From Ilex aquifolium (Eukaryota > Streptophyta > Magnoliopsida > Aquifoliales > Aquifoliaceae), in contig OX637405.1 in assembly GCA_951799425.1 (NCBI GenBank), positions 18,759,089-18,823,088 of the forward strand: a DNA stretch of 64,000 nucleotides. The letters are read 5' to 3'. Shown here one piece after another: positions 182 through 63,027 of this stretch. The position numbers and the translations under genes are program-made. The notes beneath the pieces are model-generated. The model made no database searches. It was not told where the DNA came from and was given only the letters and a program-made list of their open reading frames with translations. Numbering within the stretch: the first letter of the stretch is position 1; each line of letters begins with the position of its first letter.

Positions 182-465
182 TGATAGGTGTTGTACTGGT
201 AGGAAGGCAGAAAAAAGAAGGTTCTATCAGTAGCAAAACTCACAAAACTTTGCACTTTATCATAAGAGAAGTTCTACCGGTATTTAAACATGTTCTACCT
301 GTAAAAAAACTTATAATACATTTGTTAGAGAAGTCCTACCAGATGTTCTACCGGTAGGAAAAACCACAGAAGTTTAAGAGATTTTATCAGACAAAATTCT
401 GCAAGTAGGTAAAGGATGTTTTACCAGTAGGTCGTGCTACAGAGGGAGTTGCTGTCGGTAGATTG
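182..465 (+). repeat. CCGG-palindrome cluster in LTR A
   Basis: This cluster holds at least eight perfect or degenerate copies of the ctaccggtag motif: tactggtagg, tctatcagta, ctaccggtat, ctacctgta, ctaccggtag, accagtagg and gtcggtag forms. Units are spaced at roughly 20-60 bp. The equivalent cluster in the 3' LTR is 12212-12455. Confidence 0.75.
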
Positions 466-998
466 AGGTAAATTTTCACTGCAAGCTCAATTAAAGATCA
501 AATCTCACCATATCTTTTGGGGATTCTCGACCAATCAAAGAAGGAGATGATTTTGGGGAAGATATTTACCAAAGATATGAAGATTCTCCTTACAACCAGA
601 ATAAATAGAGACCCTTTGGGGGAATACGAGCATCACGTTGTAGAAGACGTTTAGAAGTTTTTCTTCTAGTTTTTCATTCTCTTTACGTCAGAGAGTTTTA
701 GGGTTATTTTATAGAGTTTTTCATTATTCTTCTTTTAAGTTCAGTTCTTTTATTTGTTCAAGCAATATTAAATTTAGTTGTCTTTACTTTCGAAACCATG
801 TTATTTACATTCAGTTTTTCAATACAAGCAATTAGTTTTAATTCAATCTTTACTTTTCTGAATTCAATTATGTTTTCTTTAATGCTTTGTGCTATTTCCA
901 TTATCATGAGTGAGTAGTCATCCTTTGGATAATCTAAGGAAGGAGTTCCAACCTATGAAGTAGGGCATATGGTCTAAACTAGGGTTTTAACGTTTATG

Positions 999-1083
999 TT
1001 TTTTTTTTTTTGGTGAATCTCGATAGTACGAGGGAATTTTATTGATTTTAAAAATAAATTACACCTAGTTAGGGGGGGGGGGG
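999..1083 (-). mobile_element. Short antisense poly(A)-tailed retroposon fragment
   Basis: The 5' LTR of A contains a poly-T stretch, then ggtgaatctcgatagtacga and an AT-rich stretch ending in a G12 run (1072-1083). The 3' LTR of A reads straight across this site (near 12960-12975), so this is an insertion that occurred after A integrated. On the minus strand it would end in poly(A), as a 5'-truncated LINE or SINE-like fragment would. Family assignment is uncertain. Confidence 0.5.
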
Positions 1084-3200: not shown

Positions 3201-5383
3201 AATGTATGCTAAGTTATCTGATACATCTAAAATTCTTGAGATTTTTAGGCAGGTAAAAATTAACATCCCTATTTTGGATGCAGTTAAACAAGTACCATCT
3301 TATGCCAAGTTCTTTTAAAGAATTATGCATAGTAAAGATGAAGATTAATGTGCAAAAGAGAGCTTTCCTCATACAGTAGGTAAGCTCCATCTTAAGGATG
3401 AACACTCCACCCAAATATAAAGATCTCAATTGTCTCACCATCTCAATCATCATTGGGGATTGTTGGGTAGAGCAAGCATTGCTAGATTTACGTGCAAGTG
3501 TGAACCTCCTTCCTTATTCAGTATATATGTAGCTTGGATTAGGAGAATTGAGGTCGACATCCATCGTAGTCCATTTTATTGACAGAAGTGTAATGATGTC
3601 ACGCGGAATAGTGGAGGCTGTTCTAGTCTAAGTGGAGAAATTTTACTTTTCAGTTGATTTTATTATTCTTGATACTTGTCCTGTTGTTAACCCATCTGTT
3701 CAGATCCCTGTTATTTTTTGACGACCATTTCTTGCAACCTCTAATGCCTTAATTAATTGTAGGAATGGATTTATAAAGCTGGGAATATGAATTTGAAGCT
3801 AAATGTGCTCAATATTGGAAGGCTACCCGGGGATGATGGGTAGTTACATCAGTTAAATTTCATTGACACCATCATGGAGAAACAAGTAGAAGATTCAGTT
3901 GACAAATACTTGGAGATCCTATATGAGAAAATAACTGTTCAAGAAGAAGAAGCTTTTGTTTTGGGCTTGTGGGAGCCTAAGTTTGAAGAATTACCACCAA
4001 TGGAGAAGCATGCTCTACCATCGACTGTTCAACTATCCAAACCTGATTTGAAACCACTTCTATCTACTTTGAAATATGCTTATCTGGGGAGTGATGGTAC
4101 TTTTCCAGTGGTGATTAGTTTATTCTTGCTACCTGAGCAAGAATCAAGGTTGTTACAATTGTTGAAGGCCCGTATCGGAGCTATTGGGTGGGCCATAATA
4201 GATTTAAAAGGGATCAGTCCTCTCATATACACCCACAAGATCTAACTAGAAGAAGATGCCAAGCCTTCCTACCAACCATAGCGGAGATTGAATCCTATAA
4301 TGAAGGATGTGGTACGAGCTGAAGTTCTAAAGTTGTTTGATGTAAGAATCATCTTCCTTATTGCTGATAACAAGTGGGTGAGTCCTACATTGGTAGTTCC
4401 GAAGAAGTCAGGAGTGTCTGTGGTTACTAATGAGAAGAATGAGTAGATTCCAACAAGGACAGTGACCGGGTGAAGGGTTTGCATCAATTATAAGAAGCTG
4501 AATTTGTATACCAAAAAAGACCATTTTCCATTGTAATTCCTTGACCAAGTCTTGGACCGAGTTGCGGGGCATGCGTTCTATTACTTTTTAGATGGGTATT
4601 CGGGTGACAACCAAATTGAGATAGTCCTTGAAGATCAAGAAAATACAACCTTCATGTGTCCCTCTAGAATGTTTGCCTACAGAAAGATGCCATTCAACCT
4701 TTGCAATGCTCTAGGCATGTTTCAGAGGTGTATGTTGGGGATTTTTAATGATACAATAGAGAAAATTGTCGAGGTTTTTATGGGTGATTTCTCTATATTT
4801 GGTGATTCATTTGAGAGTTGCTTGAAGAATTTGGGGTTGATATTTCAGAGGTGTGAAGAAAAAGGATTGGTTCTTAACTGGGAAAAGTTCCATTTTATGG
4901 TGACTTAGAGGCTAGTCCTTGGTCACATTGTGTCAAAGAAGGGGATATAGGTAGATAAAGCTAAGGTTGAGTTGATTTTTAACCTCCTTACTCTCAAGAT
5001 TATTAAAGATGTCCGACCATTTCTTGGTCATGCCGGGTTCTACAAGCGATTCATAAAGAGTTTTAGTGCCTTGGTACACCTGTTATGTCATCTTTTGGCC
5101 AATGATGTTCCTTTTGAGTGGAGAGCTGATTGTGAGACAACTTTTAAAACTTAAAGAATATGCTTATTTTGCCTCCAATCATGCAACTACCCAATTGAGA
5201 ATTTTTGTTTGAGCTCATGTGCGATGTGAGTGATTACATGGTTGGCGTAGTGCTAGGCCAACGACATGATAAAAAACCTCATTTCATCTACTATGCTAGC
5301 AAGACATTGAATGAAGTTCAGATAAACTACACTACCATTGAAAAGGAATTGCTAGGAGTAGTTTTTGCCCTTGATAAAGTTAG
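3201..5383 (+). pseudogene. pol: Athila Pol part 1: protease, RT, start of RNase H (element A)
   Basis: The protease region (about 3240-3850) keeps a degraded form of the L-D-x-x-A-S-V-N-L-L-P active-site block near 3480-3515. The RT spans about 4260-5150. It keeps the PFNLCNALGMFQRC block, but the catalytic FMDD reads F-M-G-D (about 4776-4787), so an aspartate is lost. The RNase H domain starts at about 5200 (FELMCDVSDYMVGVVLGQ) and is cut within the R-S-Y codons by the solo LTR; the reading resumes at 7288. Stops and frameshifts are frequent. It is a dead gene by both frame and active site. Confidence 0.85.
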
Positions 5384-5623: not shown

Positions 5624-5968
5624 AGGTATCGGTACTTGGTAACATAGGTACCGGCACCCACACCATTTGGTATCGGTACCTCGGTATTCCCCATTTTCTA
5701 CCATGATCCACTTCGAATATGAAAAAGTGAAAAACATGAAAGTTGTAGATCTGGATGTCCTCTGTCTTGTGTCAAAATTTCAGCTCAATCGGCGGTGGGA
5801 TCAAAAGTTATGGCAAAGTTAAAAAAACTAGTCCTGAGCTTGCATCCCCATTACGACCTACCGGTAGAAGGAAACTAAAACCTACCGGTAGGTTTTGCAC
5901 ACTGGAGTTGGACCTATTTGAAACCTACCGGTAGGTTTTGTCATCGACCTACCGATAATTTTTGCTGA
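5624..5968 (+). repeat. CCGG-palindrome cluster in the solo LTR
   Basis: Two subclusters are seen. Positions 5624-5687 hold ggtatcggtac and ggtaccgg forms. Positions 5850-5968 hold perfect cctaccggtagg at 5881-5892 and 5924-5935, with cacactggag between them. Confidence 0.8.
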
Positions 5969-7287: not shown

Positions 7288-8838
7288 GTCATACATTATA
7301 GGGTCACCTATTATTGTTTATTCTGACTATGCTGCTTTGAAGTATTTGTTGACTAAGTAGGAGGCCAAGCCAAGATTGATTAGGTGGATCCTTCTCCTCC
7401 AAGAGTTTTCATATCATTATCAAAGATAACAAATGAGTGGAGAATGTGGTGACTGACCATTTATTGAGGTTCTTGATTGAAGACATAGATGCTCACATTC
7501 CTATTCTTGACTTTTTTCCTTTTGAACATTTATTTACTTTGAATATAAATGTACCATAGTACGTTGATATTGTAAATTATCATGTTACAGGAAAGCTACT
7601 AAGTCATTGGAATCCAAGGGACAAGAAAAGATTCTTGGTCGAGGTGAAGCAGTTCTACATTGAGAATTCATATTTGTTCAAATACTGCCCCGGTCAAGTG
7701 AAAAGGAGATGTGTGCCCAATGAAGAGCAAAAGGACGTGATTTTTTTTGTCATTCAGAAGCTTGTGGAGGCCACTTCTCATCCAAGAAGACATCAACAAA
7801 GATTTTACAATGTGGTTTTTATTGGCCTACCTTATGTAAAAATTGTTTTACATTCTGTAAGTATTGTGATAAATTTCAACGATTAGGATGTGTGATATGT
7901 AAGAATATGATGCCACTTACAACTATATTTTTAATGGCAATCTTTGACTGTTAGAGTATTAATTTTATGGGTTCCTTTCCTATATTTTTTAGATATGCTT
8001 ACATTCTTTTGGCAGTTGACTATGTATCTAAATGGACAGAAGCTATCCCAACTAGGACCAATGATCACAAGGTTGTGATCAAGTTTTTGAAAGAGAATAA
8101 TTTTTTTTAGCTTTGAGATGCCTAGGATAATAATCAGTGATGGTGGCTTACGCTTTTGTAATAAGTCATTTGCTAATCTCATTCATAAATATGGACTTAC
8201 ACACAAAGTGTCCATGACTTACCACCCATAGACCAATGACCAAACTGAATTGGCCAATAGGGAGATCAAACACATCTTAAAAAAGACAGTTAATCCTGAT
8301 AGAAATGATTGGTCACTTAAATTGACCGATGCTCTTTGGGCTTATAGGACTGCTTTTAAGACACATTTATGTATGTCTCCCTATAGGCTAGTGTATGAGA
8401 AAGCTTAGAGATGGAACGTAGAGCATATTGGGCCATCAAAACCTTTAACTTCAATTTAAAACTTGCTGGTAGCAGTAGAAAATTGGACTTAAATGAATTG
8501 GGAGAGATAAGAAGAGATGCTTATAAGAGTACTTAGATTTACAAGGAAAAAGTAAAAAAATTTCATGATAAATCTATTTTGAGAAAGACCTTTAAGCTAG
8601 GACAGAAGGTGCTTTTATACAATTCTCATCTTCATCTTCTCCAACGTAAGCTACGCTCGAGATGGGCCGGCTCTTACATAACGCGTAAAGTTTTTCCGCA
8701 TAGAGTAGTGGAACTAGAGAATCGCAAACATTTAAAGTGAATGGTCAGCGATTGAAGCCATTCTTGGGGATTTTCCATTAGAGGAGGTTGTAGAGGAGCT
8801 AGTTGATCCTGTTTATCAGGATCTTCTGGATGATTGAT
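7288..8838 (+). pseudogene. pol: Athila Pol part 2: RNase H end and integrase (element A)
   Basis: Reading resumes at SYIIGSP (7289) after the solo LTR. The RNase H end reaches about 7480. The integrase runs from about 7540 to 8838. The segment VEVKQFYIENSYLFKYCPGQVKRRCVPNEEQ is spread over 7635-7730. The zinc-binding region is degraded (7740-7900), and the core with the D, D and E blocks is still recognisable (7950-8300), including the region homologous to [15 protein letters not shown] (8225-8270). The C-terminal part similar to LLYNSRLHL and to the NGQRLKPF end lies at 8615-8770. Several stops and at least three frameshifts make it non-functional. Confidence 0.85.
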
Positions 8839-11962: not shown

Positions 11963-13403
11963 TCTTGAGACTTCAACATTGCATTATTTTATAGCTTAAC
12001 ATATTTTATTTATGTTTGCTAATGCACTAATTCGCTTTACTTAGTATAGTTTGTGTGTTAAGTCTTGATTTCTGTGATTTCTGTGATTGTAGGTAAATTG
12101 GGTGTAAATGTTGAGTTTAAGCATTAATAAGATGACAAGAGACAAGTTGGGATTTAGTTTCCTTGGGAGAAGATGAAGCCGGGAGCTGTAGAAGTATTTT
12201 GGAAGAACAGAGAAGTTCTACCGGTAGGTGTTGCATTGGTAGGAAGGTACAAAAAGGAAGGTTTTACCGGTAGTTAAACATGTTCTACCAGTAGCAAAAC
12301 TCATAGTACTTTGCACTTTTTCATTTGTCCTATTGGATGTTTTATCAGTAGGAAAAGCCATAGAAGTTTCAGAGATTTTATCAGACAAAGTTCTATCGAT
12401 AGGTAAAGGATGTTCTACCGGTAGGTCGTGCTACAAAGGGAGTTACTACCGATAGGTCGAGGCAGATTTCCACGGGAAGCTCAATTAAAGATCAGATCCC
12501 ACCATATCTTTTGGGGATTCTCGACCAATTAAAGAAGAAGATAATTTTGGGAAAGATATTTACCAAATATCTTATGATTCTCCTTCCAATGGACATCACG
12601 TTGTAGAATACGTTTAGGAGATTTTCTTCTATTTTTTCATGTTCTTTACGTTAGAGAGTTTTAGGGTTATTTTTACAAAGTTTTGCATTATTCTTCTTTT
12701 AAGTTTAGTTATTTTATTTATTCAAACAATATTTACATTCAGTTGTTTTTACTTTTGAAACCTTGTTATTTACATTTAGTTTTTCAATACAAGCAATTAG
12801 CTTCAATTCAATCTTTACTTTTCTAAATTCAATTATGTTTTCTTTAATGCTTTGTGTTATTTCCATTATCATGGGTGAGTATTCTTCCTTTAGATAATCT
12901 GAGGAAGGAGTCCCAACCTATGAAGTTGGGCATATGCTCTAAACTAGGGTTTTAACGTTTATGTGATTGATTGAATAGGTTATGGTTTCGAAAACCTAAT
13001 TGGTTTGCATACTTCCCGATTATCTATATACAATTAGTTTTGGTATATGTAATTGTGGTGTTTTCTATGACCTTTAGGATTCTGATTCTTCCATCATAAA
13101 CTATCTTTCAACTACTACATTGGTTCTTTCAAAATTTTTAGTTGAAAATCATCTGTCTGTAGTAGACTAAATACGAATATAGATGTGTTATAGACTTAGG
13201 ATAGAAACTCTTATTCATCAGTGGGACGAATTCCGAAGATTATCCAGTTTTCCATTTTATTGAATTTCAATTTCATTAGTAGTCAACTCTCAAAATTCTC
13301 AACTTCAAAGAGTTTTTTCTTTTTATTTCTAATCACCTTAGATTCCAATTCTTTCCTTGAGGAGATGACCTTGTACTTTTTGTTCGAGTTATTACAAGAT
13401 ACT
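11963..13403 (+). repeat. 3' LTR of element A, first part
   Basis: It matches 45-1480 or so of the 5' LTR with many substitutions and lacks the 999-1083 insertion. TG at its start reads TC. The CCGG-palindrome cluster is at 12212-12455, with a perfect ctaccggtag at 12218-12227. It is interrupted by element B at 13404. The last five bases (13399-13403, ATACT) are the duplicated target. Confidence 0.9.
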
Positions 13404-16705: not shown

Positions 16706-16883
16706 TGTAACACCCCGCATTTTTTTCTTTTATATATATATGTACATAGATATATAATAAATAATTGTTGTAAAAATGTGGATATGTGTAGAAATATGTG
16801 TTGGAAAGGTTTGGGATGGTTTTGGTTGGCTTAGGAATGGATTGGAAATAAAAAATAAAGGAAGTAGGCAAATCTGGGATCAA

Positions 16884-17034: not shown

Positions 17035-17087
17035 ACTGTAAAAAAATCAGACAATTTTAGTTCGCGAACAGCCGGTTTTTCCCCCAC

Positions 17088-17095
17088 TATAAATA
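17088..17095 (+). promoter_or_regulatory. TATA box of LTR C
   Basis: Tataaata lies in a C-rich context (cccccactataaatactt), with the palindrome cluster just upstream. An identical copy is at 23509-23516 in the 3' LTR. Transcription would start about 30 bp downstream, near 17120. Confidence 0.75.
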
Positions 17096-23105: not shown

Positions 23106-23130
23106 GGTAAGTTTGGAGGACGAAACTTTC

Positions 23131-44819: not shown

Positions 44820-46597
44820 TGATTAGCACAAAACATTGTATATTTAACGTGCTTTTGCATCCCTATTTTGTGCTAGTTTTTGTGGATTGAATGAGTTGTT
44901 TTGCATTGTCTACGCTATTTATGGAATGTCGGTATGGTTGTAGATAAAAGGTGATAAATGGTGCTTCTTAAAGCCTTCTCATAGTGTTCGAGATGAATGA
45001 TGATGAAAGGATGGCTTGATGATAGCTCAGGAGGCAAGGAAACCAAGAAATCAGCAAAACAAGGGAAAACCTACCGGTAGGCAATACCCATAGGTTTTAG
45101 CTATTAGACATGCACCTACCGCTAGACATACCAGTATCTTTTGCCTACAGGAGTGAAACCTACCGGTAGGATTCCGTCGACATACCGGTAGGTTTTAGCT
45201 ACTGGACTTGCACCTACCGCCAGATATACTGGTATCTTTTGCCTACTGGAGTGAAACCTATCGGTAGGTTTTACTGATAAGTGCCAGATTCTGAATCTCA
45301 AGCTCTGCAGTCTTGGGGGTCCCACCAGACATTCTCCTACCTACCCCTGCCACTCCCAACACCATAGACATCCCTCTTACACCTCTCCATGGAATTTTGG
45401 ATGGTTGATCATAAATGAGGAAAGAGGAGAGAGAAGGTGCTGGGTGTGGAGATAAGGCCTGCACCAAACCTGTCCAGCCCATCCCTTCTCAGTCCTAGGC
45501 TTGGAGATCCTACCAGGGGCTAGAGCAGCACTCCATGGACGTTTTTGGAGGGGAAATACTCATTTATTCTGGATTAGAGGATATACATTGTAATATAGAG
45601 AGGGAGATAGTCTAGGAAAAAGATGAATAGTGTTAGAGAGAGAAGTTGAGATTTTTGCATTTTATTCCACACATTGTCTTGTAATTTCATGTAAGATCTT
45701 TCTAAGCTTTGTTTGAAGTCATTAATGCTAGTTATTTCAAGTTGATTTTAAGTTTAATTGTCTATTCAAGCTTTTACCATTTTTTTTTTTTTTTTCAAGC
45801 TTTTACCATTAATGCATTCATGTTCTTCAATTTCTTAGCTTAAAATGGGTAGTGAATGCATTCTCTTTTAGTTTGTGTTTCTTACATTAACTTAGCTACA
45901 ATCTTCATCTCTTTATAATGTCTTCTTATTATATTGTTGTCTTTACTTTAAGCATGAGTAGCTAAGCTTTTTAGTTGGCTAATCCAAGGGAGATCTCCAC
46001 TTGGGTATGTCTTTACAACTCATTTTCTTTCCTCCTCTTAGAGTACGATGGCTCGCTTTGACTGGGTTGAGAGTGGATGCGGTTGTGAGTCTTTGATATC
46101 CCGTAGGCCTGGTTACGGGTTATGCTTGGATCCTCACTTCCATCTCATCCCTAGCTTCCCACGAATCAATCGTACATCTATGCTCTATTGGAGGAAAGAC
46201 TCGAGTTGTGTTGGCATCCCCATTGGAATGAACCCTTCAGATTAGCCAACACTTATTTTCCCATCTTAATTTCATTACAACTCAAATCACAAACCAATTC
46301 CAAACAACAAAAGATTTTACACTTCTCTTTCACCAAAATCACCTTCTACATGATTCACATCCTTCCCCGAGGAGACGACCTTGGAGTACTCTCCAAGTAA
46401 AAAACGACATACAAAAGTCTTCTTGCGCTTGGGAAGCATTTTTGTTCACTCACACATTTCATTTTCCACCATTCCCTTGGCCTTTCTTTTGACATCATTC
46501 CAAGGGAGAGTGACACTCCCCCCTTTCACACATATATCATAGATACCTTGAGGGATGATGTTAGGAGGTTAGGAATAACAAGGTAATAAACCAAGCA
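44820..46597 (+). repeat. 3' LTR of element D (1778 bp)
   Basis: Same LTR as 33224-34851. It is longer by a duplicated palindrome segment (45070-45190) and by a duplication around a T-run (caagcttttaccatt twice, 45764-45808). It ends CCAAGCA before ATACT. The hairpin cttggagtactctccaag is at 46380-46397. Confidence 0.93.
45070..45272 (+). repeat. Expanded CCGG-palindrome cluster in 3' LTR D
   Basis: Two tandem units of roughly 110-120 bp each read ccggtaggnnttagctantngacntgcacct then accgcnagatata and cctacnggagtgaaacct. The 5' LTR has one unit. Perfect ctaccggtag copies are near 45071 and 45162. Confidence 0.85.
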
Positions 46598-48742: not shown

Positions 48743-51060
48743 TGTGACGCCCCAATTTCTGGGGGTCCTATATTAACCGTTGATCATCCTTCAACCCGCG
48801 GAAGTACCCATGGATGTCCCTCAACCCAACACCACGTCGATAGCATCCACTTGACCGGAATCATAACCCACAATTGTAAACCGGATTCAATTATTCATTG
48901 GGCTCAACCAAGATCCAACATACCACGATTTATATTCAATTTACATCATTGGAGGGAAGGAAAACATAGACCGAAAATAGGGCAAAGTAGTTTGAAAATT
49001 TGAAATCTCTTGAGAGTGTACCGGTACTGCGTACCGGTACGGTTTGCCTACTGGAAAATGCGTAACGGTACGGAAGTGTACCCGTACCCTCTGCCCAGTT
49101 TTCCCTTTTTCATATGTTTTTCATTTTCAATTCATTCCAAACCTTCCCCAAATCATCCAATACATGAGTAATAAGGTTTCCCATATAAAACATGATTTGT
49201 ACAAGTTTCATTACAATTGATTCCATATATTTACACATCAAAATGGAATTTTCACAAAAACTTTACAGAAATAACCATAAAAGCCACAAGTCGGCTTTCT
49301 TCAACCTTGGGGCTCGAAATGGGAGCCGTTCGCCGGTGTAAACCCCGCACCTGAAATGTTTTTCCCACAAAGGGTGAGTCACGCTCAATAGGGTATCTCC
49401 TAAAGAGGTTACTCCCCAACCTATATGCATATGAAATGTTCACATGCCACAAATCAACAATTCACAACATTCCAATTCAGAATATGCACTCCATGTTGGA
49501 ATCTACCATGTCATGCCATGAAATGAGATGAGACTCACTCACGCACATCATCCCGAGCCCTTCCCGGCTCCTCAACACATACAAGTGTCAATGTGTATTA
49601 GCCGTCATCTATGTTGCACATCAAATGACATTTCATTCTAGGGTCTTTATAGGGGTGGATGTTCATGGACTCACACCAAGGGTCACCCAACCCACACGGA
49701 ATTGACGGACTTCCACCGAGGGTTCCGCGTACACCCACACACTTCATGGACCGAGCCAAGGGAGTGCGTATCCCAATCACCGAGTCTTGCACCCGAGGGA
49801 TCTTTTAGCCCTTCTTGCTACCCCAACCCTAACAACCATGCAAACCGTGAGACTCGACTAGGTCATCGACCCATCTTGCCCGAGCCCACTCGTCATCCAC
49901 CACGCGTGGTGAAGACAACCACCATGCACACACACCCACTAAATGCGATGTTCCCGTGCATATGCAACATGATGTCCCATTGCAACCATAATACAATGTC
50001 CAATATGGTATGAGTGACATATGAACATTTACGACACATTTCATATGCTTCATGGCAAAATTATATCATAAGCATATAATTCCCATAAAACAATTTCCAA
50101 GCATGTTGTCACATAATTATGCTATCAACATTTTAAATTCTCAAGGCATATATATAAACACATAACATGCCCACAATTCCATATAACACAAGAATCACAT
50201 ATCCAATTCTAGAAATCACATTTAGCAATTTCTAATTATCAATCCATGCTAGGATTCATCTTTACCCTTTTCAATACCCATTTCACCCCATTTAACAATA
50301 ATAGGCAAATGATATATATATATCCATCTACCCATTTCACCTAAGCATTCTAGGTGTGGAATGAACCTTGGTAGGAGGGAACCCTACCTCTTGAAGCGTA
50401 AGGAACGACCGTAGGAAGCTCCAAGACCCGAATCAAGCTCTAAGCCCTAGCTTCCAAAAATCCCGTCCTTGGAATTTCGCCCAAACCCGACCTCCTTGGT
50501 ATGGTTTTGTAGCCCTTGACGTGTAGAACAATCTTTGTTCTTGGCCCGAGTGGATTTGAGCTTCCAATCTTTGTAGATCGTAGATAGAAGGTGGAGAAAC
50601 TCAAGATTTTCCCTCTCTTCTTTCTCACGTTAAAACCGGCTGAGCAAATGGGTGAGAAATCTGATTTTCTCCCCTTTAAATACTTGGCCCACAATGCGCC
50701 ACACGATCCTTATTTCTCGGGTCTGTTTTAGCCCCGAAACGATTAAATCTCGCTCCGGTTCAAGTTCAAAATATTTTTATTTTAACTTGCCGTCATTTAT
50801 TTCCCAAAATTTAAAATTTGATTCAGAATTTCATTTTTGGGTCTCCAGAGGCCCGACCGCCTCATAAAACGCGAAAAATCCGACTAACTTAAAATTCAAT
50901 GAAATTTGACAGGGTAACTAGATTTCGCGAGACGAATCCAACGGTGATGTCCGTTTCGTCATCCGAGCTCTAGAAAAATTCAGGTTTACAACCTGTACCA
51001 TAGTGGCAAATTACCGTTTTGCCCTTTTTCACAAAAGTTCAAATTTACCCGGGTTTTACA
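48743..51060 (-). repeat. 3' LTR of element E (2318 bp)
   Basis: On the minus strand it begins TGTAAAACCCGGG (51060) and ends GGCGTCACA (48743). It aligns with the 5' LTR of B along its whole length. The gtaccggtac cluster is at 49018-49085. The polypurine tract precedes it (51061-51076, ttaaggggggaag on the minus strand). Confidence 0.92.
49018..49085 (-). repeat. CCGG-palindrome cluster in LTR E
   Basis: The units gtaccggtac, cgtaccggtacgg, a degenerate cgtaacggtacgg and gtacccgtacc are spaced by tgcctactggaaaatg. It is the same array as in LTR B with mutated copies. Confidence 0.82.
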
Positions 51061-51154
51061 TTCTTCCCCCCTTAAAAGAATTTCGTCCCCGAAATTCACA
51101 CACGCATGCACATACCACCACATGCATATGCAACATTCATATAATACTACGTGA

Positions 51155-54100
51155 CTATAAGAATGTACATCCATCCTCAAATAAGAAAGGATAATTGGCA
51201 CGTATGGTATCCTCACGCTCCCATGTTGCCTCCTCCACTCCTCGGTGCTGCCATAACACCTTCACTAGCCTCACGGTCTTGCTTCGCAAAACCTGCTCCC
51301 AGCTATCCATGACACACACTGGTCCCTCCTCGAAGGTCCCATCCGCATCAACAACAAGCTCGTCCCAATCCACAACATGCGTCGGATCTGGAGTACACTT
51401 CTGGAGCATGGAGAGATGGAATACTGCGTGAACGTCCGATAAAGTCGGCGGTAACACCAACATGTAGGCCACAGTGCCAACTCTCTCAAGTACCTCAAAT
51501 GGCCCAATATACCTCGGCGACAGCTTTCCCCGCTTGCCGAATCTGACCACTCATCTCTTAGGCATCACCTTCAAGAAGACATGATCTCCCACCTCAAACT
51601 CCAGAGGTCGTCGCCGTCTATCGGCGTAGCTCTTCTGCCGGCTTTGAGCCGTGAGAAAACACTTCCTTATCAGGTCCACCTTCTCCGAGGCGTCTCTTAT
51701 CAAGTCTAGACCCGTAAAGGGTCTTTCTCCAACCTCTGTCCAACAAACCGGAGAACGACAAGGCCTCTCATAAAGTGCCTCATAGGGTGCCATCTGTATG
51801 CTCGCCTAATAACTATTGTTATAGGCGAACTCCACTAAGGGTAAATGCTCTTCCCAGCTACCCTTGAGGTCTAGGACGCATGCCCGTAACATGTCCTCTA
51901 ATGTCTGGATGGTCCTCTCTGACTGACCGTCCGTTTGGGGAATAAAGGTTGTACTCATCATCAACTGAGTCCCCATGGCTCACTGGAAACTCTCCCAAAA
52001 TTGAACCGTAAACCTGGGATCCCGATCCGATACTATAGATACGGGCACCCCATGCAACCGGACTATCTCCCGTATGTACAACCTGCAGAATTCCTCCAGC
52101 GTGAAGGTCATCCGCATCGCCAAAAAGTGTGCCGATTTCGTAAGCCGGTCCACTATCACCCACACCGCATCATGTCCCCGCGATGTCCGTGGCAAGTGGG
52201 TCACAAAATCCATCGTGACGTGCTCCCACTTCCATTCAGCCATTTCTAACAACTGGAGCAAACCAGCTGGTCTTTGGTGTTCAGCCTTAATCTGCTGACA
52301 TGTGAGGCATCTACTGACAAAGTCGCCAATCTGCCTCTTCATCCCGCTCCAATGATACTGGCGACGAAGATCATGATACATCTTCGTGCCGCCTGGATGC
52401 ACCGCAAAACGAGGGCAATGGAACTCCCTCAGGATCTCCTCTCTCAGATCCGCCAACTGGGGAACCACAACCCTTCCCCTAAACCGAAGACTGCCATCCA
52501 AGTGAATGGCCCAGCCCTCTTCACTAGTACCCGTCTGCACTCGGTCCCTTATGGACGATAACTCTTGGTCCTGCCCCTGGGACTCAATCACTCTGCTCAG
52601 TAGGGACGGTGTAGCTACCAAGCTCCCTAAAACACCCTGAGTCTGACCCCAATAATGCAGCCCAAACTGTCCCACTGCCTCGAGCATTCGCCACTCTCGG
52701 GAAGCCACACTAGCCACAACTTCTCGTGACCTCCGGCTAAGTGCATCAGCTACCACATTTGCCTTACCGAGATGGTAATGCAAAGTGAAATCATAGTCCT
52801 CTAGATACTCCATCCACCTTCGTTGCCTCATATTGAGGTCCCGTTGAGTAAAAATGTGCTTCAGACTTTTGTGGTCCGAAAACACCTCAAACTGCTTACC
52901 GTATAGGTAGTGGCGCGAAGCCTTCAAGGCAAAAACTATGGCCGCCAACTCCATATCATGCGTGGGGTAATTCTGCTCGTGATTCTTCAATTGTCAAGAA
53001 CCATAAGCCACCACTCTCCCGGACTGCCTTAAGACACAACAAAGTCCGTCCTTGGAGGCATCGCAATACACCATGTAGTTTTGTCCCCTCTCCGGAACAA
53101 TCAAGATAGGAGCTGAGGTGAGCCTCCTCTTTATCTCCTGGAATGCCTTCTCACACGAATCATTCCACTCGAACTTGACCTCCTTCCGGGTCAATCTAGT
53201 CATAGTTGCGGCTAGTCGGGAGAAGTCCTCGATGAATCTCCGGTAGTACCCTGCCAATCCCAAGAAACTACGTATCTCGAAGACTGACTTTGGCCTCTCC
53301 CAACTCATAACTACCTCAACTTTCTCCAGGTCAACTGACACCCCCGAAGCCGACACCACGTGTCCCAAAAATTTCACATTTGTAAACCAAAATTCACACT
53401 TACTGAACTTGGCGTACAACTGGTGGTCCCTCAAGGTCTGGAGAACAATCCTCAAGTGACCCTCATGCTCCTCCTTTATCTTGGAGTAGATCAGGATGTC
53501 ATCAACAAACACCACGACAAACTGATCTAAATAGGGTTGGAACGTCCTATGCATGAGATCCATGAATGCCACTGGGGCATTCGTCAATCCAAATGGCATC
53601 ACTGTGAACTCGAAATGCCCATACCGCGTTCTGAACGTCGTCTTAGGGATATCTGCCTCCCTAATCCTCAACTGATGGTAGCCCGTGCGGAGATCTATCT
53701 TAGAGTAGACCCGCGCTCCCCTCAGCTGATCAAACAGATCATCAATCCTCGGCAAAGGGTACCTATTCTTGATGGTAACCCAGTTCAACTGCCGATAGTC
53801 TATACACAATCGAAGGGTCTTATCCTTCTTCTTGGCAAACAATACCGGAGCACCCCAAGGTGAAGTGCTCGGTCTAATGAAACCTTTGTCCAATAATTCT
53901 TGTAATTGGACCTTGAGTTCTTGCAACTCAGCTGGAGCCATCCTATGTGGAGCCATAGAAATTGGAGAAGTATCCGGATGCAACTCGATGCTAAAGTCCA
54001 CATCCCTATGGGGAGGTAATCCCGGTAGGTCGTCCAGAAAAATGTCCTCATACTCACATACTACCCGAGGTAGACCCAATTCTTGTCTCGCCTCGTCCTC

Positions 54101-55750
54101 CAGGGAAAGGCTCGCAAGCCACCCCATCAACTGCCCATGCCATCGAGAGTCATACACGGCTTGGGGCAAAGGGTCATGCTTTTCCCCTTGAAACTTGAAA
54201 CAAACACCATCTGGTGTATAGGCAGTGACCCTATTCCTATCACAATCAATGAAGACCCGATGCGCCGTCAACTAGTCCATCCCAAGGAGGACATTGAACT
54301 CCGACATGTCCATAACCCTAAGGTCCACGGTGAGTAGAATCCCCGAGATCTCTAACTCACAACCCTGACAAATCTGATTCACACATACCCTAGCTCCTAG
54401 GGGTGAATTCACATACAACGGCTCTTCCGAGGTATCAACCTCTAAGCCCAAATCCCTCACACATGATGCAGAAATGAATGAATGCGATGCACCAGAGTCA
54501 AATAACACTCTAGCCCATAAGCGAGAGAGTAGAAATGTACCCTGAATGACCGACTGGTCCACTGGCTTAGCCTGAGGTGTAATGGCGTAGACACGCCCTT
54601 GGGTCCCCGAAGTCCCGGCCTGCATGCCCTGTCCCCGGCCTCGACCCATGCCCTGGCCCATCTGGCCTAACTGCGGAGTCCCCGCTCGAAAAGTGGTAGG
54701 GGCCTAAGTAGCACCCTGGAACTGATATTGGTTTCCCTGGCCCATGGTGGGGTAGGGAGGAACAAAATGTGTATGTGGCTATCCCACTGATGATTGGGAC
54801 TGAGATGTCCCATAGCTCTGGGATCCCTGCCTCTGAGGACAATCCCGCCTCATATGCCCCGGTTGGTGGTAATGGAAACATGTCTTCTGGCCTGCCTGGT
54901 AGGTAGTCCTGAAGTTTCTCCCGCCTTGGGAAAGTTGCCCTTGACCTTGGCCTTGATAGCCGCGGCCCTGTCCTGGTTGTCCTTGTGGAGCAGAAGTCCT
55001 CTGCTTCTTCCCCGAACTAGAAGAAGAGGATTGGCCCTCCTTCTTCTTATCCTTAGCACCCGCCTCACGGATGCTTCGTGCATCGTCAACCTCTCTCTGA
55101 ATAGCCATAGCTGTCTCGACCATAGAGTCCAAGTCTTGCAGGCGGAGACCCACAATCTTTCCCCCGATGGATAGTTTCAACCCATCCTCAAACCTTCTTA
55201 CCTTGGCCATATCCGTGGCCACGTAATCATCAGCAAATCAGGCTAATTCGGTGAACTTAGCCACATACTCCATTACAGTCATTGACCCTTGCTTCAAATC
55301 TAGGAATTCCCGGGCCTTTGCGTGTCAAACGGCCGTTGGGAAATATTTACCCATGAAGAGCTCCCTAAACTCTCCCCATGTCATGGCCTCTAAGTTCTTC
55401 GAGGCCGTCACCCAATCCCACCACAATTGGGTTTCTCCCTCTAACTGGAATGCAGCTAGTCTTATCTTAGTAGCATCTGAGGTGACCTCCATTGCCCCTA
55501 AGATCTTATTGACTTGCCGGAACCAATGGTCTGCCACCATCGGATCCGCCCCTCCCACGAAGACTAGAGGTTTGTGTGCTTTAAATTGTTGGAGGTTACT
55601 CGTGCCTCTATGCCCGGCATTTGCACTAGCTTGTGCAACAGTAGCCGCCATCATGCCCATGGTTTCCATAAACACTTGTTGGTCGAAGACCGGTGGTGGT
55701 TGGTTATTGTTCCGCCCACCGCCTCGACGTCCTCTTCTTCCACTTGCCAT
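51155..55750 (-). pseudogene. gag-pol: Tekay Gag-Pol polyprotein (element E)
   Basis: The ATG at 55750 begins MASGRRGRRGGGRNNNQPPP. Order: Gag core with WWDWV, zinc knuckle CFHYHQPGHMRRDC (second Cys now Tyr), protease with LFDSGASHSFIS, RT with [12 protein letters not shown] (aspartates at 53498-53503), RNase H, integrase with D-D-E blocks, and a chromodomain ending [17 protein letters not shown]. The frame is kept except for nonsense codons: TGA 55325-55327, TAG 54704-54706, TAG 54272-54274, TGA 52994-52996, TGA 51980-51982, TAG 51806-51808 and TGA 51551-51553, plus a short disrupted stretch near 51935. Most fit single C-to-T or G-to-A changes. Confidence 0.92.
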
Positions 55751-56093
55751 CTACACACACGTCAAGTGGCAATGGCACAATAACTTAGTATCCCGAGATA
55801 GGGACCAAAGTTAAAACGTTCAAATTTTTCTCATTGTCTCACTAGTAGAGCGTATGCCTCCAATAGTAGACATCTACACCTTGAACTATCCCGTTTATTC
55901 ACTTTCCCACTCCCAATGTTAAGTTCTCTAACCCTAGGGTGCTCATTTTCCATACACATTTTTACCATGCATATAATTTAAACAACACATACCACATAAC
56001 ATGTAGCAATTTAATCACATAATGTGTAATGCACAATGAATGCAATGGTCTAGACCCATGCCCCATCAAGCCCTAGGTAATTCGCATACCTAG

Positions 56094-56105
56094 GCTCTGA
56101 TACCA
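56094..56105 (-). other. Primer-binding site of E
   Basis: Minus-strand tggtatcagagc lies 3 nt inside the shared LTR end (56109). The leader between it and the gag ATG (55750) has no other feature. Confidence 0.92.
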
Positions 56106-56108
56106 AGG

Positions 56109-56939
56109 TGTGACGCCCCAATTTCCGGGGGTCCTATATTAACCGTTGATCATCCTTCAACCCGCGGAAGTACCCGTGGATGTCCCTCAACCCAACACCA
56201 CGTCGATAGCATCCACTTGACCGGAATCATAACCCACAATTGTAAACCGGATTAATTATTCATTGGGCTCAAACAAGATCCAACATACCATGATTTATAT
56301 TCCATTTACATCATTGGAGGGAAGGAAAACATAGACCGAAAATAGGGCAAAGTAGTTTAAAATTTTGAAATCTCTTGAGAGTGTACCGGTACTGTCTGTC
56401 TACTAGAAAATGCGTACCGGTACGGTTTGCCTACTGGAAAATGCGTACCGGTACACAGTACCGGTACGGAAGTGTACCGGTACCCTCTGCCCAGTTTTCC
56501 CATTTTCATCTGTTTTTCATTTTCAATTCATTCCAAACCTTCCCCAAATCATCTAATACATGAGTAATAAGGTTTCCCATATAAAACATGATTTGTACAA
56601 GTTTCATTACAATTGATTCCATATATTTACACATAAAAATTGAATTTTCACAAAAACTTACAGAAATAACCATAAAAGCCACAAGTTGGCTTTCTTCAAC
56701 CTTGGGGCTCGAAATGGGAGCCCGACCGCCTCGTAAAACGCGAAAAATCCGACTAATTCGGAATTCAACGAAATTTGATAGGGTAACTAGATTTCGCGAG
56801 ACGAATCCAACGGTGATGTCCGTTTCGTCATCCGAGCTCTAGAAAAATTCAGGTTTACAACCTGTACCATAGTGGCAAATTACCGTTTTTCCATTTTTCA
56901 CAAAAGTTCAAATTTACCCGGGTTTTACATTCTTCCCCA
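56109..56939 (-). repeat. Shared, internally deleted LTR between E and F (831 bp)
   Basis: Both ends are intact (TGTAAAACC at 56939, GGCGTCACA at 56109). About 1.5 kb of the middle is missing compared with 48743-51060; the join lies at about 56719-56725 and shares gcc. The gtaccggtac cluster is kept (56383-56485). It has F polypurine tract on one side and E primer site on the other, so it serves both copies. Confidence 0.9.
56383..56485 (-). repeat. CCGG-palindrome cluster in the shared E/F LTR
   Basis: Five gtaccggtac-type sites, including the close pair gtaccggtacacagtaccgg, are interspersed with tactagaaaatgcg and tactggaaaatgcg spacers. Confidence 0.85.
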
Positions 56940-59900
56940 CTTAAAAAAATTTCGTCCCCGAAATTCACACACGCATGCACATACCACCACATGCATATGC
57001 AACATTCATATCATACTACGTGACTATAAGAATGTACATCCATCCTCCAATAAGAAAAGATAATTGGCACGTATGGTATCCTCATGCTCCCATGTTGCCT
57101 CCTCCACTCCTCGGTGCTGCCATAACACCTTCACTAGCCTCACGGTCTTGCCTCGCAAAACCTGCTCCCGGCTATCCATGACACGCACTGGTCCCTCCTC
57201 GAAGGTCCCATCCGCATCAACAACAAGCTCGCCCCAATCCACAACATTCGTCGAATCTGGAGTATACTTCCGGAGCGTGGAGACATGGAATACTGCGTGA
57301 ACGCCCGATAAAGTCGGCAGTAATGCCAACCTGTAGGCCACAGTGCCAACTCTCTCAAGTACCTCAAATGGCCCAATATACCTCGGCAACAGCTTTCCCC
57401 GCTTGTCGAATCTGTCCACTCCCCTCTTAGGCATCACCTTCAAGAAGACAAGATCTCCCACCTCAAACTCCGGAGGTTGCCGCCGTCTATTGACCTAGCT
57501 CTTCTGCCGGCTTTGAGCCGTGAGAAGACGCTTCCTTATCAGGTCCACCTTCTCCGAGGCGTCTCTTATCAAGTCTGGACCCGTAGAGGGTCTTTCTCCA
57601 ACCTCTGTCCAACAAACCAGAGAACGACAAGGCCTCCCATAAAGTGCCTCATAGGGTGCCATCTGTATGCTCGCCTAATAACTATTGTTATAGGCGAACT
57701 CCACTAAGGGTAAATGCTCTTCCCAGCTACCCTTGAGGTCTAGGACGCATGCCCGTAGCATGTCCTCTAATGTATGGATGGTCCTCTCTGACTGACCGTC
57801 CGTTTGGGGATGAAAGGCTATACTCATCATCAACTGAGTCCCCATGGCTCGCTGGAAACTCTCCCAAAATTGAGCCGTAAACCTGGGATCCCGATCCGAT
57901 ACTATAGATACGGGCACCCCATGCAACCGGACTATCTCCCGTATGTACAACCTGCAAAATTCCTCCAGCGTGAAGGTCATCCGCACCGCCAAAAAGTGTG
58001 CCGATTTCGTAAGCCGGTCCACTATCACCCACACCGCATCATGTCCCCGCGATTTCTGTGGCAAGTGGGTCACAAAATCCATCGTGACGTGCTCCCACTT
58101 CCATTCAGCCACTTCCAACGGCTGGAGCAAACCAACTGGTCTTTGGTGTTCAGCCTTAATCTGCTGACATATGAGGCATCTACTGACAAAGTCGCCAATC
58201 TGCCTCTTCATCCCGCTCCAATGATACTGGCGACGAAGATCATGATACATCTTCGTGCCACCTGGATGCACCACAAAAGGAGAGCAATGGAACTCCCTGA
58301 GGATCTCCTCTCTCAGATCTGCCAACTGGGGAACCACAACCCTTCCCCTAAACCGAAGACTGCCATCCGAGTGAATGGCCCAGCCCTCTTCACTAGTACC
58401 CGTCTGCACTCAGTCCCTTATGGATGATAACTCTTGGTCCTGCCCCTGGGACTCAATCACTCTGCTCAGTAGGGACGGTGTAGCTACCAAGCTCCCTAAA
58501 ACACCCTGAGTCTGACCCCGATAATGCAGCCCAAACTGTCCCACCGCCTCGAGCATTCGCCACTCTCAGGAAGCCACACTAGCCACAACTCCTCGTGACT
58601 TCCGGCTAAGTGCATCAGCTACCACATTTGCCTTACCGGGATGGTAATGCAAAGTGAAATCATAGTCCTCTAGATACTCCATCCACCTTCGTTGCCTCAT
58701 ATTGAGGTCCCGTTGAGTAAAAATGTGCTTCAGACTTTTGTGGTTCGAAAACACCTCAAACTGCTCACCGTATAGGTAGTGGCGCGAAGCCTTCAAGGCA
58801 AAAACTATGGCCGCCAACTCCATATCATGCGTGGGGTAATTCTGCTCGTGATTCTTCAATTGTCGAGAACCATAAGCCACCACTCTCCCGGACTGCATTA
58901 AGACACAACCAAGTCCTTCCTTGGAGGCATCGCAATACACCATGTAGTTTTTTCCCCTCTACGGAACAATCAAGATAGGAGCTGAGGTGAGCCTCCTCTT
59001 TAGCTCCTGGAATGCCTTCTCACACGAATCATTCCACTCGAACTTGACCTCCTTCCGGGTCAATCTAGTCATAGGTGCGGCTAGTCGGGAGAAGTACTCG
59101 ATGAATCTCCAGTAGTACCCTGCCAATCCCAAGAAACTACGTATCTTGAAGACTGACTTTGGCCTCTCCCAACTCATAACTACCTCAACTTTCTCCGGGT
59201 CAATTGACACCCCCGAAGCCGACACCACGTGTCCCAAAAATTTCACCTCTGTAAGCCAAAATTCACACTTACTGAACTTGGCGTGCAACTGCTGGTCCCT
59301 CAAGGTCTAGAGAACAATGCTCAAGTGACCCTTATGCTCCTCCTCTGTCTTGGAGTAGATCAGGATGTCATCAACAAACACCACGACGAACAGATCTAAA
59401 TAGGGTTGGAACATCCTATGCATGAGATCCATGAATGCTGTTGGGGCATTCGTCAATCTAAATGGCATCACTGTGAACTCGAAATGCCCATACCGCGTTA
59501 TGAACGCCGTCTTAGGGATATCTGTCTCCCTAATCCTCAACTGATGGTAGCCCGTGCCGAGATCTATCTTGGAGTAGACACGCGCTCCCCTCAGCTGATC
59601 AAACTGATAATCAATCCTCGGCAAAGGGTACCTATTCTTGATGGTAATTCGGTTCAACTGCCGATAGTCTATACACAATCGAAGGGTCTTATCCTTCTTC
59701 TTAGCAAACAATACCGGAGCACCCCAAGGTGAAGTGCTCAGTCTAATGAAACATTTGTCCAATAATTCTTGTAATTGGACCTTGAGTTCTTGCAACTCAA
59801 CTGGCGCCATCCTATGTGGAGCCATAGAAATTGGAGAAGTACCCGAATGCAACTCGATGCTAAAGTCCACATCCCTATGGGGAGGTAATCCCGGTAGTTC

Positions 59901-61130
59901 GTCCGGAAAAATGTCCTCATACTCACATACTACCCGAGGCAGACCCAATTCTTGTCTCGCCTCGTCCTCCAGGGTAAGGCTCGCAAGCCACCCCATCAAC
60001 TGCCCATGCCATCGAGAGTCATACACGGCTTGGGGCAAAACGTCATGCTTTTCCCCCTGAAACTTGAAACAAACACCATCCGGTGTATAGGCAGTGACCC
60101 TCTTCCTATCACAATCAATGACGACCCGAAACGCCGTCAACCAGTCCATCCCAAGGATGACATCGAACTCCGACATGTCCATAACCCTAAGGTCCACGGT
60201 GAGTAGAATCCACGAGATCTCTAACTCACAACCCCGACATATCTGATTCACACATACCCTAGCTCTTAGGGGTGAATTCACATACAACGACTCTTCCGAG
60301 GTATCAACCTCTAAGCCCAAATCCCTCACACATGATGCAGAAATGAATGAATGCGATACACTAGAGTCAAATAACACTCTAGCCCATAAGCAAGAGAGTA
60401 TAAATGTACCCTGAATGACTGACTGGTCCACTGGCTCAGCCTAAGGTGTAATGGCGTAGACACGCCCTTGGGTCCTCGAAGTCCCGACCTGCATGCCCTG
60501 TCCCCGGCCTCGACCCATGCCCTGGCCCATCTGGCCTGACTGCGGAGTCCCCGCTTGGAAAGTGGTAGGGGCCTGAGTAGCACCCTGGAACTGATATTGG
60601 TTTCCCTGGCCCATGGTGGGGTAGGGAGGAACAAAATGTGTCTGTGGCTGTCCCACTGATGACTGGGACTGAGATGTCCCATAGCTCTGGGATCCCTGCC
60701 TCTGAGGACAATTCCGCCTCATATGCCCCGGTTGGTGGCAATGGAAACATGTCTTCTGGCCTACCTGGTAGGTAGTCCTGAAGTTTTTCCCGCCTTCGGA
60801 AAGTTGCCCTTGACCTTGGCCTTGATAGCCGCGGCCCTATCCTGGTTGTCCTTGTGGAGCAGAAGTCCTCTGCTTCTTCCCCGAACTAGAAGAATAGGAT
60901 TGGCCCTCCTTCTTCTTATCCTTAGCACCCGCCTCACGGATGCTTCGTGCATCGTCAACCTCTCTCTCAATGGCCATAGTTGTCTCGACCATAGAGTCCA
61001 AGTCTTGCAGGCGGAGGCCCACAATCTTTCCCCGGATGGATAGTTTCAACCCATCCTCAAACCTTCTTACCTTGGCCATATCCGTGGCCACGTAATCATC
61101 AGCAAATCGGGCTAATTCGGTGAACTTAGC
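56940..61130 (-). pseudogene. gag-pol: Tekay Gag-Pol, 5'-truncated (element F)
   Basis: The start lies beyond element G; the visible part opens in the Gag core at AKFTELARFADDYVATDMAK. Zinc knuckle CFHCHQPGHMRRNC (near 60725-60765), protease with D-S-S-V in place of D-S-G-A (about 60368), RT with [12 protein letters not shown] intact (59367-59372), RNase H, integrase and chromodomain follow, to the last codons TFL near 57024. The polypurine tract is 56940-56956. Breaks include a Gag frameshift near 60840, TAG near 59308, a stop near 58566 and TAG 57675-57677. The last is in the same codon as in E. Confidence 0.9.
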
Positions 61131-63027
61131 TGATGAGAGCAAAATATTGCATATTTGATGGCCTCATTATATGCATTTTAACTCAACTTTTGCATTTAAG
61201 TACTTAGTGTTAGCCAAAGTTGTGAATAATGTTGATATTTTGATGTTGCATGTTTTGATAGCTTAAATGATGGATTTTAGGACTTTGCAACTATGTTGGA
61301 TGTGAGGTGAAGTGGTGGACTCATGAAATGAGGATTGAGAGGCTTGGAAGGTAAAGAAATCAAGAAAAATGCATTTTGGATGAAGACCTTCCGGAAGGTT
61401 TATGAAGACCTTCCGGAAGGTTTAGCCCACTGGAATTTCGTAATTTTGACACTGTACCACTGTTTTTCTAAATTTTGACCATGATCTACTTCGAATTTGA
61501 AAAAGTGCAAAACATGAAAGTTGTAGATATGGATGTCCTTTTTATTGTGTCAAAATTTCAGCTCAATCCAACGGTTGGATCAAAATTTATTATTTTTCTA
61601 CCAAAACTGGTCCAGAGCTGTCACCAGATTCCAGTAGGTTAAACCTTCCGGAAGGTTGTCATCGTTCTTCCGGAAGGTCTTGCCCAGAATGCGAAAAACA
61701 GCCTGCAACTCAACTTTGTGGCTTGGGGGTCCCACCTAATCTTCTCCCACTTGCTCCCCAACATTATCTTACACAAGCACATGCTTCCCTTACACATTTG
61801 GAGGACTTTGGAGGCTTTGCATTGAAGAAGGCATGGGAGGGAAGTGGGCTACCATGGGGGGTGTTGTCCTAGCTTGTCCAAGGCAATCAACTCAGCCCCT
61901 CTTTGGTGTAAGACCTGCACACACCTAGGGGGACCCTCCATGGACGAAATTCAAGGCTCTCACTCTCCATTATACATTCAACATTCAACACACAAGGAAA
62001 GGGGGTTGGCTACCTAAGCTTAGGAGTAGATGTAGAAAGCTCCAAGGTTGAAGATGATGAATAGTAATTTCGTTTTTGCATTTTCTTCATCCATGTCATT
62101 GTTGTAAGCTACATTCCTCTTGTAATCTTCATTTCTTACATTGTAATCTCCTTTATTTCAAGTATATTGCAAGTTAGTTACATGTTCTTCATTTCACCAT
62201 TTATGCTTTCAAGTTCTTCATTTTCATGTTTTAAATTGGGTATTGTATTTCTTTCTTCTTAGTTTAAGATTTCTTGCATTTAGTTAAGTTCCATGCTTCA
62301 TTTCTTCTACATGTCTTCCATTTACATTAATGTCTTTCCTTTCAAGCATGAGTAGCTAGATTTAAGTTGTTTAATCCAAGGGAAAATTCCTCTTGGGAAT
62401 ACCATGTTCAAATCTTCTTCATTCCTCCCTTTAGAGTCAAATGGTTCGGTTTGACGGGGTTGAGAGTGGATGAGTTGGTGAGCCTTTGATATTCCGTAAG
62501 CCTAGTCACGGTTTATGCTTAGATACTCACCAATCTCGTCCCTAGCTTCCCCCGAATCAATCGTTCATTCATGCTCAATCGGAGGAAGGCTTTGAGTTGA
62601 TTTGGTATTCCCATTGGAATGAACCCTTTGGATTAGCCAACACTTGCTTTCTTGCATTTTCATTTTGAACAAAACTCACCAAAACACAAATACAAGATTT
62701 TACACTTTCTTTTCACTTTTGCAAAATCACTTTCACAAAACTCCCTTTCCTTCCCTGAGGAGACGACCTTGGAATATTTTCCAAGTAAAACACACGACCA
62801 CAAAAGACTCCTTTCGATTGGGGAGCATTTTTGTGCACACCGCATCTCATTCCATCTATTTTGTTCATCACATTTCCATTCACATTCACATTTGTTGTTG
62901 CTCCTATATCTCTTGCATTATCCGGAGGGAGAGTGACACTCCCCCATCACTATAAGCCACATACACACATTGAGGGTGAGGGTGATGTTTAGGGGTTAGG
63001 GAATACAACACGGTTTTCATTCAATCA
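61131..63027 (+). repeat. 5' LTR of element G (1897 bp)
   Basis: Same family as the solo LTR at 5389-7287. It has a cluster of ccttccggaagg sites (61387-61682) and the conserved end block ttccctgaggagacgacctt with hairpin cttggaatattttccaag (62768-62785). It ends TCAATCA. Confidence 0.9.
61387..61682 (+). repeat. CCGG-palindrome cluster in LTR G
   Basis: Perfect ccttccggaagg at 61387-61398 and 61409-61420, then agcccactgg, and a second pair (aaccttccggaaggtt and cttccggaaggtc) at about 61645-61680, preceded by ccagtagg. The related solo LTR has ctaccggtag at the matching sites, so the outer bases changed together while the palindrome stayed. Confidence 0.88.

Follow-up and report, generated by a model that had tools for sequence, protein, structure and literature searches.

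A CCGG palindrome and a half-site at a favoured ten-nucleotide distance cluster in the long terminal repeats of two gypsy retrotransposon groups of Ilex aquifolium and may form a promoter module

We have analysed a 64,000-nucleotide stretch of the genome of Ilex aquifolium (contig OX637405.1, positions 18,759,089 to 18,823,088; hereafter the window), which is made up of nested long terminal repeat (LTR) retrotransposons, and found that the LTRs carry clusters of short palindromes centred on CCGG. In most of the cluster regions the palindrome is combined with a second, asymmetric site in a composite consisting of TACCGGTA, exactly 10 nucleotides and then ACTGG on one strand. This arrangement recurs in two groups of gypsy elements, and its features suggest that the clusters are probably promoter-proximal enhancers in the U3 part of gypsy LTRs, in which a dimer would bind the palindrome and a partner the half-site. 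The host assembly comprises 800,232,872 bp in 103 contigs, and the analysis covers this single genome, a single species and sequence data.

The LTR set of the window comprised 13 copies (22,105 bp), and the remaining 41,895 bp served as the non-LTR comparison; with a further cluster in the interior of element D, the 13 copies gave 14 cluster regions. The copies belong to approximately five families (A; D, G and a solo LTR; H; B, E and F; C), and those of the same family are not independent. Repeats and primer-binding sites served to estimate where LTR H starts and where some of the other LTRs have their outer ends. Self-comparison, LTR ends, primer-binding sites and Pfam domains distinguished two gypsy groups: the primer sites of A, H, D and G are, we assume, tRNA-Asp-like and those of B, C and E/F tRNA-iMet-like, and the solo LTR resembles G and D. 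The labels Athila and Tekay were taken over from the original prediction, made by a model from the letters of the window; their basis is the presumed type of primer-binding site and pol similarity within the window. Element C has the Pfam domain order gag, protease, reverse transcriptase (RT), RNase H and integrase, the order of Ty3/gypsy. Among the top hits listed for RT, those that carry a name are nearly all from plants. Rfam gave no match within the window. As an independent sample, 200 kb were taken at 20 fixed genome positions (loci denoted by L and a number), with the window excluded. In the arrangements given below, P stands for the palindrome TACCGGTA (TTCCGGAA in G), P' for an imperfect palindrome and H for the half-site, mostly CYACTGG.

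Perfect palindromes of at least 10 bp numbered 119 in the window, and 38 of these had a CCGG core against approximately 2.9 expected; the second-highest ratio was that of CGCG (3 against 0.6). CCGG was the centre of such a palindrome in 36 of 70 cases within LTRs and in 2 of 101 outside them (Fisher P 3.5e-15), one of the latter two belonging to the internal D cluster (42848–42861). Dinucleotide shuffles of each LTR (200 each) gave mean palindrome counts of 0.00–0.12. The density in LTRs is thus far higher than in shuffled or non-LTR sequence, in line with the original prediction, and all the family variants of the palindrome named there are present in the window. It had further assigned two to eight copies to every LTR, which holds for most of them: the perfect copies number five in B5, C5 and F (5 and 3 after the letter mark the 5' and 3' LTR), four in C3 and G, three in the solo LTR and two in A3, B3, D3 and E. 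The statement fails for A5 and H, with one copy each, and for D5, which has no perfect copy and a single 14-mer palindrome with one mismatch. Beside TTCCGGAA, AACCGGTT counts as a further variant of the palindrome.

Genome-wide, CTACCGGTAG was found at 22,728 places and the reversed sequence at 353. CCGG was also the top one of the 16 palindromic cores in the 200-kb sample (37 of 300 sites, 6.85 times the expectation; next ATAT with 3.74), and 33 of these 37 palindromes were GTACCGGTAC or CTACCGGTAG, confined to five of the 20 loci. Tekay- or Athila-like pol was detected in all five, with a weak match in L141; L144 contains one perfect site only. In L128 and L142, where the only gypsy pol is a more distant one, there was no such cluster, L128 containing a lone TTTCCGGAAA and L142 none. 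None of the eight CCGG sites in four 1.5-kb stretches downstream of copia RT was palindromic, a sample too small to exclude copia elements. When the arms of the 300 sample sites were compared, 119, 109, 35 and 37 of them matched at none, one, two and all three positions, respectively, with approximately 5.4 fully symmetric sites expected. Dyad symmetry is therefore well above chance.

At the level of the genome, TACCGGTA-N10-ACTGG occurs at 12,390 places and the reversed pattern at 21. Pairs of TACCGGTA and ACTGG with gaps of 0–30 nt numbered 27,819 (802 when reversed), and the 10-nt gap accounted for 45% of them; among the first 100 pairs listed, 47 had a gap of 10 and 11 the runner-up gap of 15 nt. 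Within the window, 11 of the 14 regions, belonging to solo, D, G, C and B/E/F, contained the composite, the start-to-start offset of +16 gave 14 hits against 6 for the next offset, and the chance of at least one composite per cluster was 0.001–0.01 (2000 shuffles). When all 5-mers at all offsets from the window's palindromes were ranked without bias, ACTGG at +16 came first, in five of seven families, which none of 300 spacer shuffles equalled. The half-motifs ccagt/actgg, said originally to stand at fixed short spacing, hence follow one rule that is sharper than the statement made, in 11 of 14 regions and not in A5, A3 or H. In viral contigs, used as a negative control, the gap of 10 was seen in 3 of 123 among the matches listed, without a peak there; the matches were distributed across all gaps (highest at gap 8, 12 of 123), and neither a relative of the RT of C nor a match for a longer composite was found in these contigs.

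Two listings, each taken to its hundredth place (contig C1), supplied a set of 51 distinct gap sequences. Information content was 0.05–0.41 bits at gap positions 2–8, 0.74 at position 1 and above 1 bit at positions 9–10, the last two extending the half-site to mostly CYACTGG. The length of the gap is constrained and its sequence is nearly free, as would be expected from two protein contacts at a set distance, which argues against simple copying. Start-to-start distances follow the order P-16-H-15/16-P, with modules joined at 11–13 or 21–22 bp and periods of approximately 43–44 bp; G has TTCCGGAA in four palindromes and leaves the +16 offset of the half-site unchanged. The composite follows the sense strand of D and solo and the antisense strand of B, C, E and F, and G has it both ways, so that its orientation is free. 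No blastn match longer than 100 bp was obtained between Athila and Tekay LTRs (shorter matches lay outside the listing), and the N10 spacing occurs in both groups, so that the claim of one module common to otherwise dissimilar LTRs is supported.

In the window's Tekay types, the clusters precede TATA-like boxes. In the 5' LTR of C, a cluster of the ACTACCGGTAGT type with 43-bp units and a minus-strand composite (16883–17033) ends 54 bp before the TATA box CTATAAAT (17087–17094, plus strand), where approximately 55 bp had been predicted, and in the 3' LTR (23337–23444, minus strand) CTATAAAT likewise begins 54 bp further on. TATA-like boxes follow the clusters of B, E and F at 83–84 bp. In the 5' LTR of B the box (15586–15593, plus strand) starts 84 bp past a GTACCGGTAC-type cluster with a minus-strand composite, in which P-13-P-16-H-15-P is repeated (15392–15502); in E and F, elements on the minus strand, the boxes at 48928–48935 and 56293–56300 are 83 bp downstream of the clusters at 49018–49086 and 56383–56483 (both listed on the plus strand). 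The 3' LTR of B holds P-16-H-15-P (26892–26932, minus strand). TATA-like boxes in the sample were found 54 bp after the L123 cluster and one L141 cluster, 75 bp after that of L140 and 94 bp after that of L137, with strands deduced from pol for L137 and L140 and from likeness to C for the other two. In each of the 12 LTRs examined, the cluster exceeded the remainder of the LTR in its ratio of observed to expected CpG, by a small margin in A5, F and H; this excess is partly circular, because each palindrome holds one CpG.

The remaining clusters are those of A, the solo LTR, H, D and G. The 5' LTR of A (272–357, plus strand) contains one perfect CTACCGGTAG (348–357) and a near-palindrome at approximately 277, and its 3' LTR (12218–12424, plus strand) contains palindromes and decayed relatives without P-N10-ACTGG. 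The B/C complex is flanked by ATACT at 13399–13403 and 27209–27213, a likely 5-bp target-site duplication, which suggests that the complex was inserted into the 3' LTR of A. The solo LTR (5858–5957, plus strand) reads P-24-P-16-H-27-P-24-P'. LTR H (29445–29583, plus strand; no composite) is a looser case, with one perfect GAACCGGTTC and, by eye, arm-matched sites centred on CTAG, CTGG and CCAG. Its 41-bp repeats carry AGAAC-NN-GTTCT, a dyad repeat of another kind, with a variable centre (TA, TG, CA) between arms that remain matched. In D, the 5' LTR array (33476–33572, plus strand) is P-16-H-16-P'-12-P'-16-H-16-P'-13-P' and has no perfect 10-bp palindrome; the 3' LTR array (45070–45279, plus strand) includes a 98-bp tandem duplication of the module. 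The internal copy of the array (42740–42861, plus strand) lies between pol and an open reading frame (ORF; 43177–43881) matching PF20167, a plant transposon protein family, below the curated cut-off; this ORF had only two database relatives at E≤0.001, both with PF20167. The 3' LTR and the internal cluster of D hold seven and five 8-mers, respectively, with at most one mismatch. G has TTCCGGAA-22-TTCCGGAA-16-CCACTGGA at 61386–61434 (plus strand) and an equal composite on the opposite strand, with CTACTGGA, at 61630–61676. Furthermore, E/F (48743–61130) and C (16706–25399) look like multi-LTR elements, LTR-internal-LTR-internal arrays with a cut end, and perhaps arose by unequal recombination. 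The 3' LTR of C contains a 166-bp tandem repeat of approximately 2.2 copies (23999–24364), not seen as a tandem array in its 5' LTR.

Paired changes of the outer bases on both arms had been proposed for the solo LTR and G; the two clusters could not be aligned base by base, and at the place of the first TTCCGGAA cluster of G the solo LTR shows GTACCGGTAC-type sequence that looks decayed, which points to replacement of the module and not to paired point changes. Single-mismatch relatives near P differ from it by C>T in 13 of 21 cases and elsewhere in 15 of 60 (Fisher P 0.003), an excess that fits deamination of methylated sites after insertion and is the one observation here that bears on the methylation-sensitive switch of the original prediction. 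Some CTGG/CCAG sites (A3, L144) do resemble such decay. As a general account of the half-site, decay of a palindrome was rejected, since the half-site keeps its offset and its own flank. Overall, the observations of the original prediction are partly confirmed and its interpretation is partly supported.

A dimeric DNA-binding factor fits the palindromes best. Such a protein would occupy P (TACCGGTA, or TTCCGGAA in G), and a second subunit or a partner would occupy the half-site, displaced start to start by 16 bp (1.5 helical turns), so that both occupants may be held in a fixed register along the helix. A further P often stands 15–16 bp on, and the modules recur at 11–13, 21–22 and 43–44 bp. 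The complex would recruit transcription to the downstream TATA box. We presume that the protein is encoded by the host and acts as an activator, and that unrelated LTR families either converged on the module or exchanged it. A wider proposal, which we put forward tentatively and at somewhat less than even chances, is that of an LTR promoter code independent of lineage: one host complex reading the P-N10-ACTGG geometry could give unrelated gypsy lineages a common entry into transcription, the module could be gained, lost and swapped as a cassette, and TTCCGGAA and the variants of family H could reflect a re-tuned interface with the reader. Factors of lateral-organ-boundary, MYB AC-element, SPL and LEAFY sites might be considered as readers of parts of the motif, and none of them seems to fit both P and the half-site in all families.

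Several results weigh against the enhancer interpretation or reduce the force of the spacing rule. More than half of the TACCGGTA–ACTGG pairs have gaps other than 10, the 12,390 places are transposon copies and not independent events or origins, and the composite is missing from three of the window's regions (A5, A3 and H). Some of the 51 gaps differ by a single base. The count of lineages is weak when taken alone, because some 5-mer shared by three lineages is not rare in shuffles (mean 0.37 features). With strict ACTGG, the offset of +16 was seen in three of the nine sample clusters and that of -16 in four; with [AT]CTGG, a relaxation chosen after inspection of L141, +16 was seen in five of nine (on average 0.098 in shuffles, and at most 2 in any of 1000 runs). 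Two of the nine are single sites (L129 and L144) without the +16 offset. In L141 itself (4222–4398 and 8496–8630, minus strand), CTTCTGG replaces CTACTGG as the half-site at equal offset, with a period of 42–43 bp. Lone sites also occur away from such elements, namely TTTCCGGAAA in L128 and TACCGGTA in L129, the latter 7.6 kb from a copia RT. The P-P spacings of 12–13 and 16 bp are not whole helical turns. Finally, the 260 bp that follow the clusters of A, D, solo and G showed no TATA-like box, and neither did the 160 bp on the side presumed to be transcribed of both L135 clusters and two of the three L141 clusters; for these two, a TATA-like word stands at a distance of 78 bp on the opposite side.

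Another possible explanation is that the clusters serve as an address for silencing, in which a host factor, for example of the B3/REM type, binds the composite and thereby brings Pol IV and RNA-directed DNA methylation to the LTRs of gypsy elements. A precedent is given by Arabidopsis REM factors, which together with GDE1 bind spaced short motifs and recruit CLSY3/4-Pol IV in a manner dependent on spacing, according to the accessible text of PMC12270911, and each P contains CG and CHG sites, with a C>T bias nearby as expected if these were methylated. However, an element would presumably gain nothing from keeping such an address across unrelated families, the siting just upstream of TATA-like boxes in Tekay types suits a promoter, and the REM motif as given in that text differs, and we regard a silencing address as unlikely. 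Nor do we expect that the palindromes act chiefly as RNA, with copies pairing in LTR transcripts and thereby feeding small-RNA production or RNA dimerisation. Such a role was proposed for maize Sirevirus palindromes (PMC10760457, PMC5311732, in the sections available), and 10 of 11 cluster stretches had folding z-scores of -2.6 to -9.2. Yet any repeated set of palindromes folds well, the A3 stretch did no better than shuffles (z -0.62), and hairpins require neither the half-site nor exactly 10 free bases; the RNA stem offered in the original prediction thus leaves the fixed gap of free sequence unexplained. It is possible that hairpins are by-products of repeated palindromes, and a primary role for them seems to us quite improbable.

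Neutral turnover would have spread one functionless sequence by tandem duplication, gene conversion and recombination between LTRs. Traces of such processes exist: there are tandem units of 43–44 and 98 bp, D3 has a duplication that D5 lacks, and gaps are partly alike between D (GGTTTTAG or TCTTTTGC) and B/E/F (CGGTTTGC). Copying would, however, carry the gap sequence along, yet the gaps are diverse at a fixed length; G has a different palindrome at equal offset, and the genome sample has more symmetric arms than expected, all of which makes turnover alone very unlikely. The elements themselves might encode the reader, which would bind the motif and keep their chromatin open in the way of VANC of VANDAL transposons, whose short target motifs are specific to each family and occur in clusters and tandem repeats (PMC5735166, PMC10398659, as far as the accessible text goes), and D carries an extra ORF, the one with the weak PF20167 match. 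We consider this highly improbable, as two gypsy groups would have to share one factor, Pfam identified nothing beyond gag-pol domains in the long ORF of C, and VANC motifs vary between families, whereas one spacing is common here.

The closest likeness among known systems is with the RM boxes of Sireviruses (Bousios et al. 2010, PMC2829016), which, in the accessible text, are short palindromes rich in CGG/CCG, several per LTR, that differ between families with the symmetry kept, lie upstream of the TATA box and are CpG-rich. They also have extra copies ahead of the envelope gene, as the internal D cluster precedes the extra ORF with its weak PF20167 match. In contrast, they belong to Ty1/copia elements, in which they were called specific to Sireviruses as opposed to classic copia (same text), and our clusters to Ty3/gypsy. 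Most of them have CGG ahead of CCG in the core (CGG..CCG), in many cases with a spacer between, and here the order is the opposite, CCG and CGG overlapping in CCGG; a second half-site at fixed spacing is not described for them in the sections of PMC2829016 available. RM boxes were defined by at least eight copies per element, imperfect copies and linker included (PMC2829016, accessible text); with 0–5 perfect palindromes per LTR here, the outcome by that definition depends on how imperfect copies are counted. The same sections name no common binding factor for RM boxes. What is new relative to them is the gypsy hosts and the two-site spacing rule. Maize Sirevirus LTR palindromes (Bousios et al. 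2016, via the accessible parts of PMC10760457 and PMC5311732) are similarly clustered in the regulatory region of the LTR and RNA-foldable, with the motif CACCGGAC-NNN-GTCCGGTG backed by small-RNA mapping; our clusters are known from sequence.

Other comparisons are more distant. VANC target motifs are likewise short motifs amassed as tandem repeats in noncoding transposon DNA, but VANDALs are DNA transposons with an element-encoded reader, and the motif YAGTATTAY is non-palindromic, with no fixed two-site spacing described in the accessible text of PMC5735166 and PMC10398659. The REM-GDE1 motifs at siren loci share with our composite a spacing-dependent recognition of several sites, there by host factors at siRNA loci; they are set apart, on the published description in the available part of PMC12270911, by TTTTGCTTAT direct repeats one base apart, few sites and a role in silencing. 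Repetitive LTR/Gypsy enhancers detected by STARR-seq in barley indicate that gypsy LTRs are able to act as enhancers, and no LTR palindrome or spacing rule is described in the accessible text (PMC12016029). We found no report of the motif or its spacing in gypsy LTRs in mainly open-licence literature, searched by titles and the beginnings of abstracts, which is weak evidence of absence.

A rigid two-site code at thousands of places in two gypsy groups offers a single probe with which the responsible protein could be fished out, and the length of the gap provides a built-in control, as it can be altered by a few bases. In plants, little is understood of what brings different retrotransposon families to expression in the same cells. 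An activator as the reader would account for the joint activation of unrelated elements; a silencing factor would make the composite an alarm of the plant based on sequence. In either case, the clusters would extend to Ty3/gypsy a phenomenon of the Ty1/copia Sireviruses.

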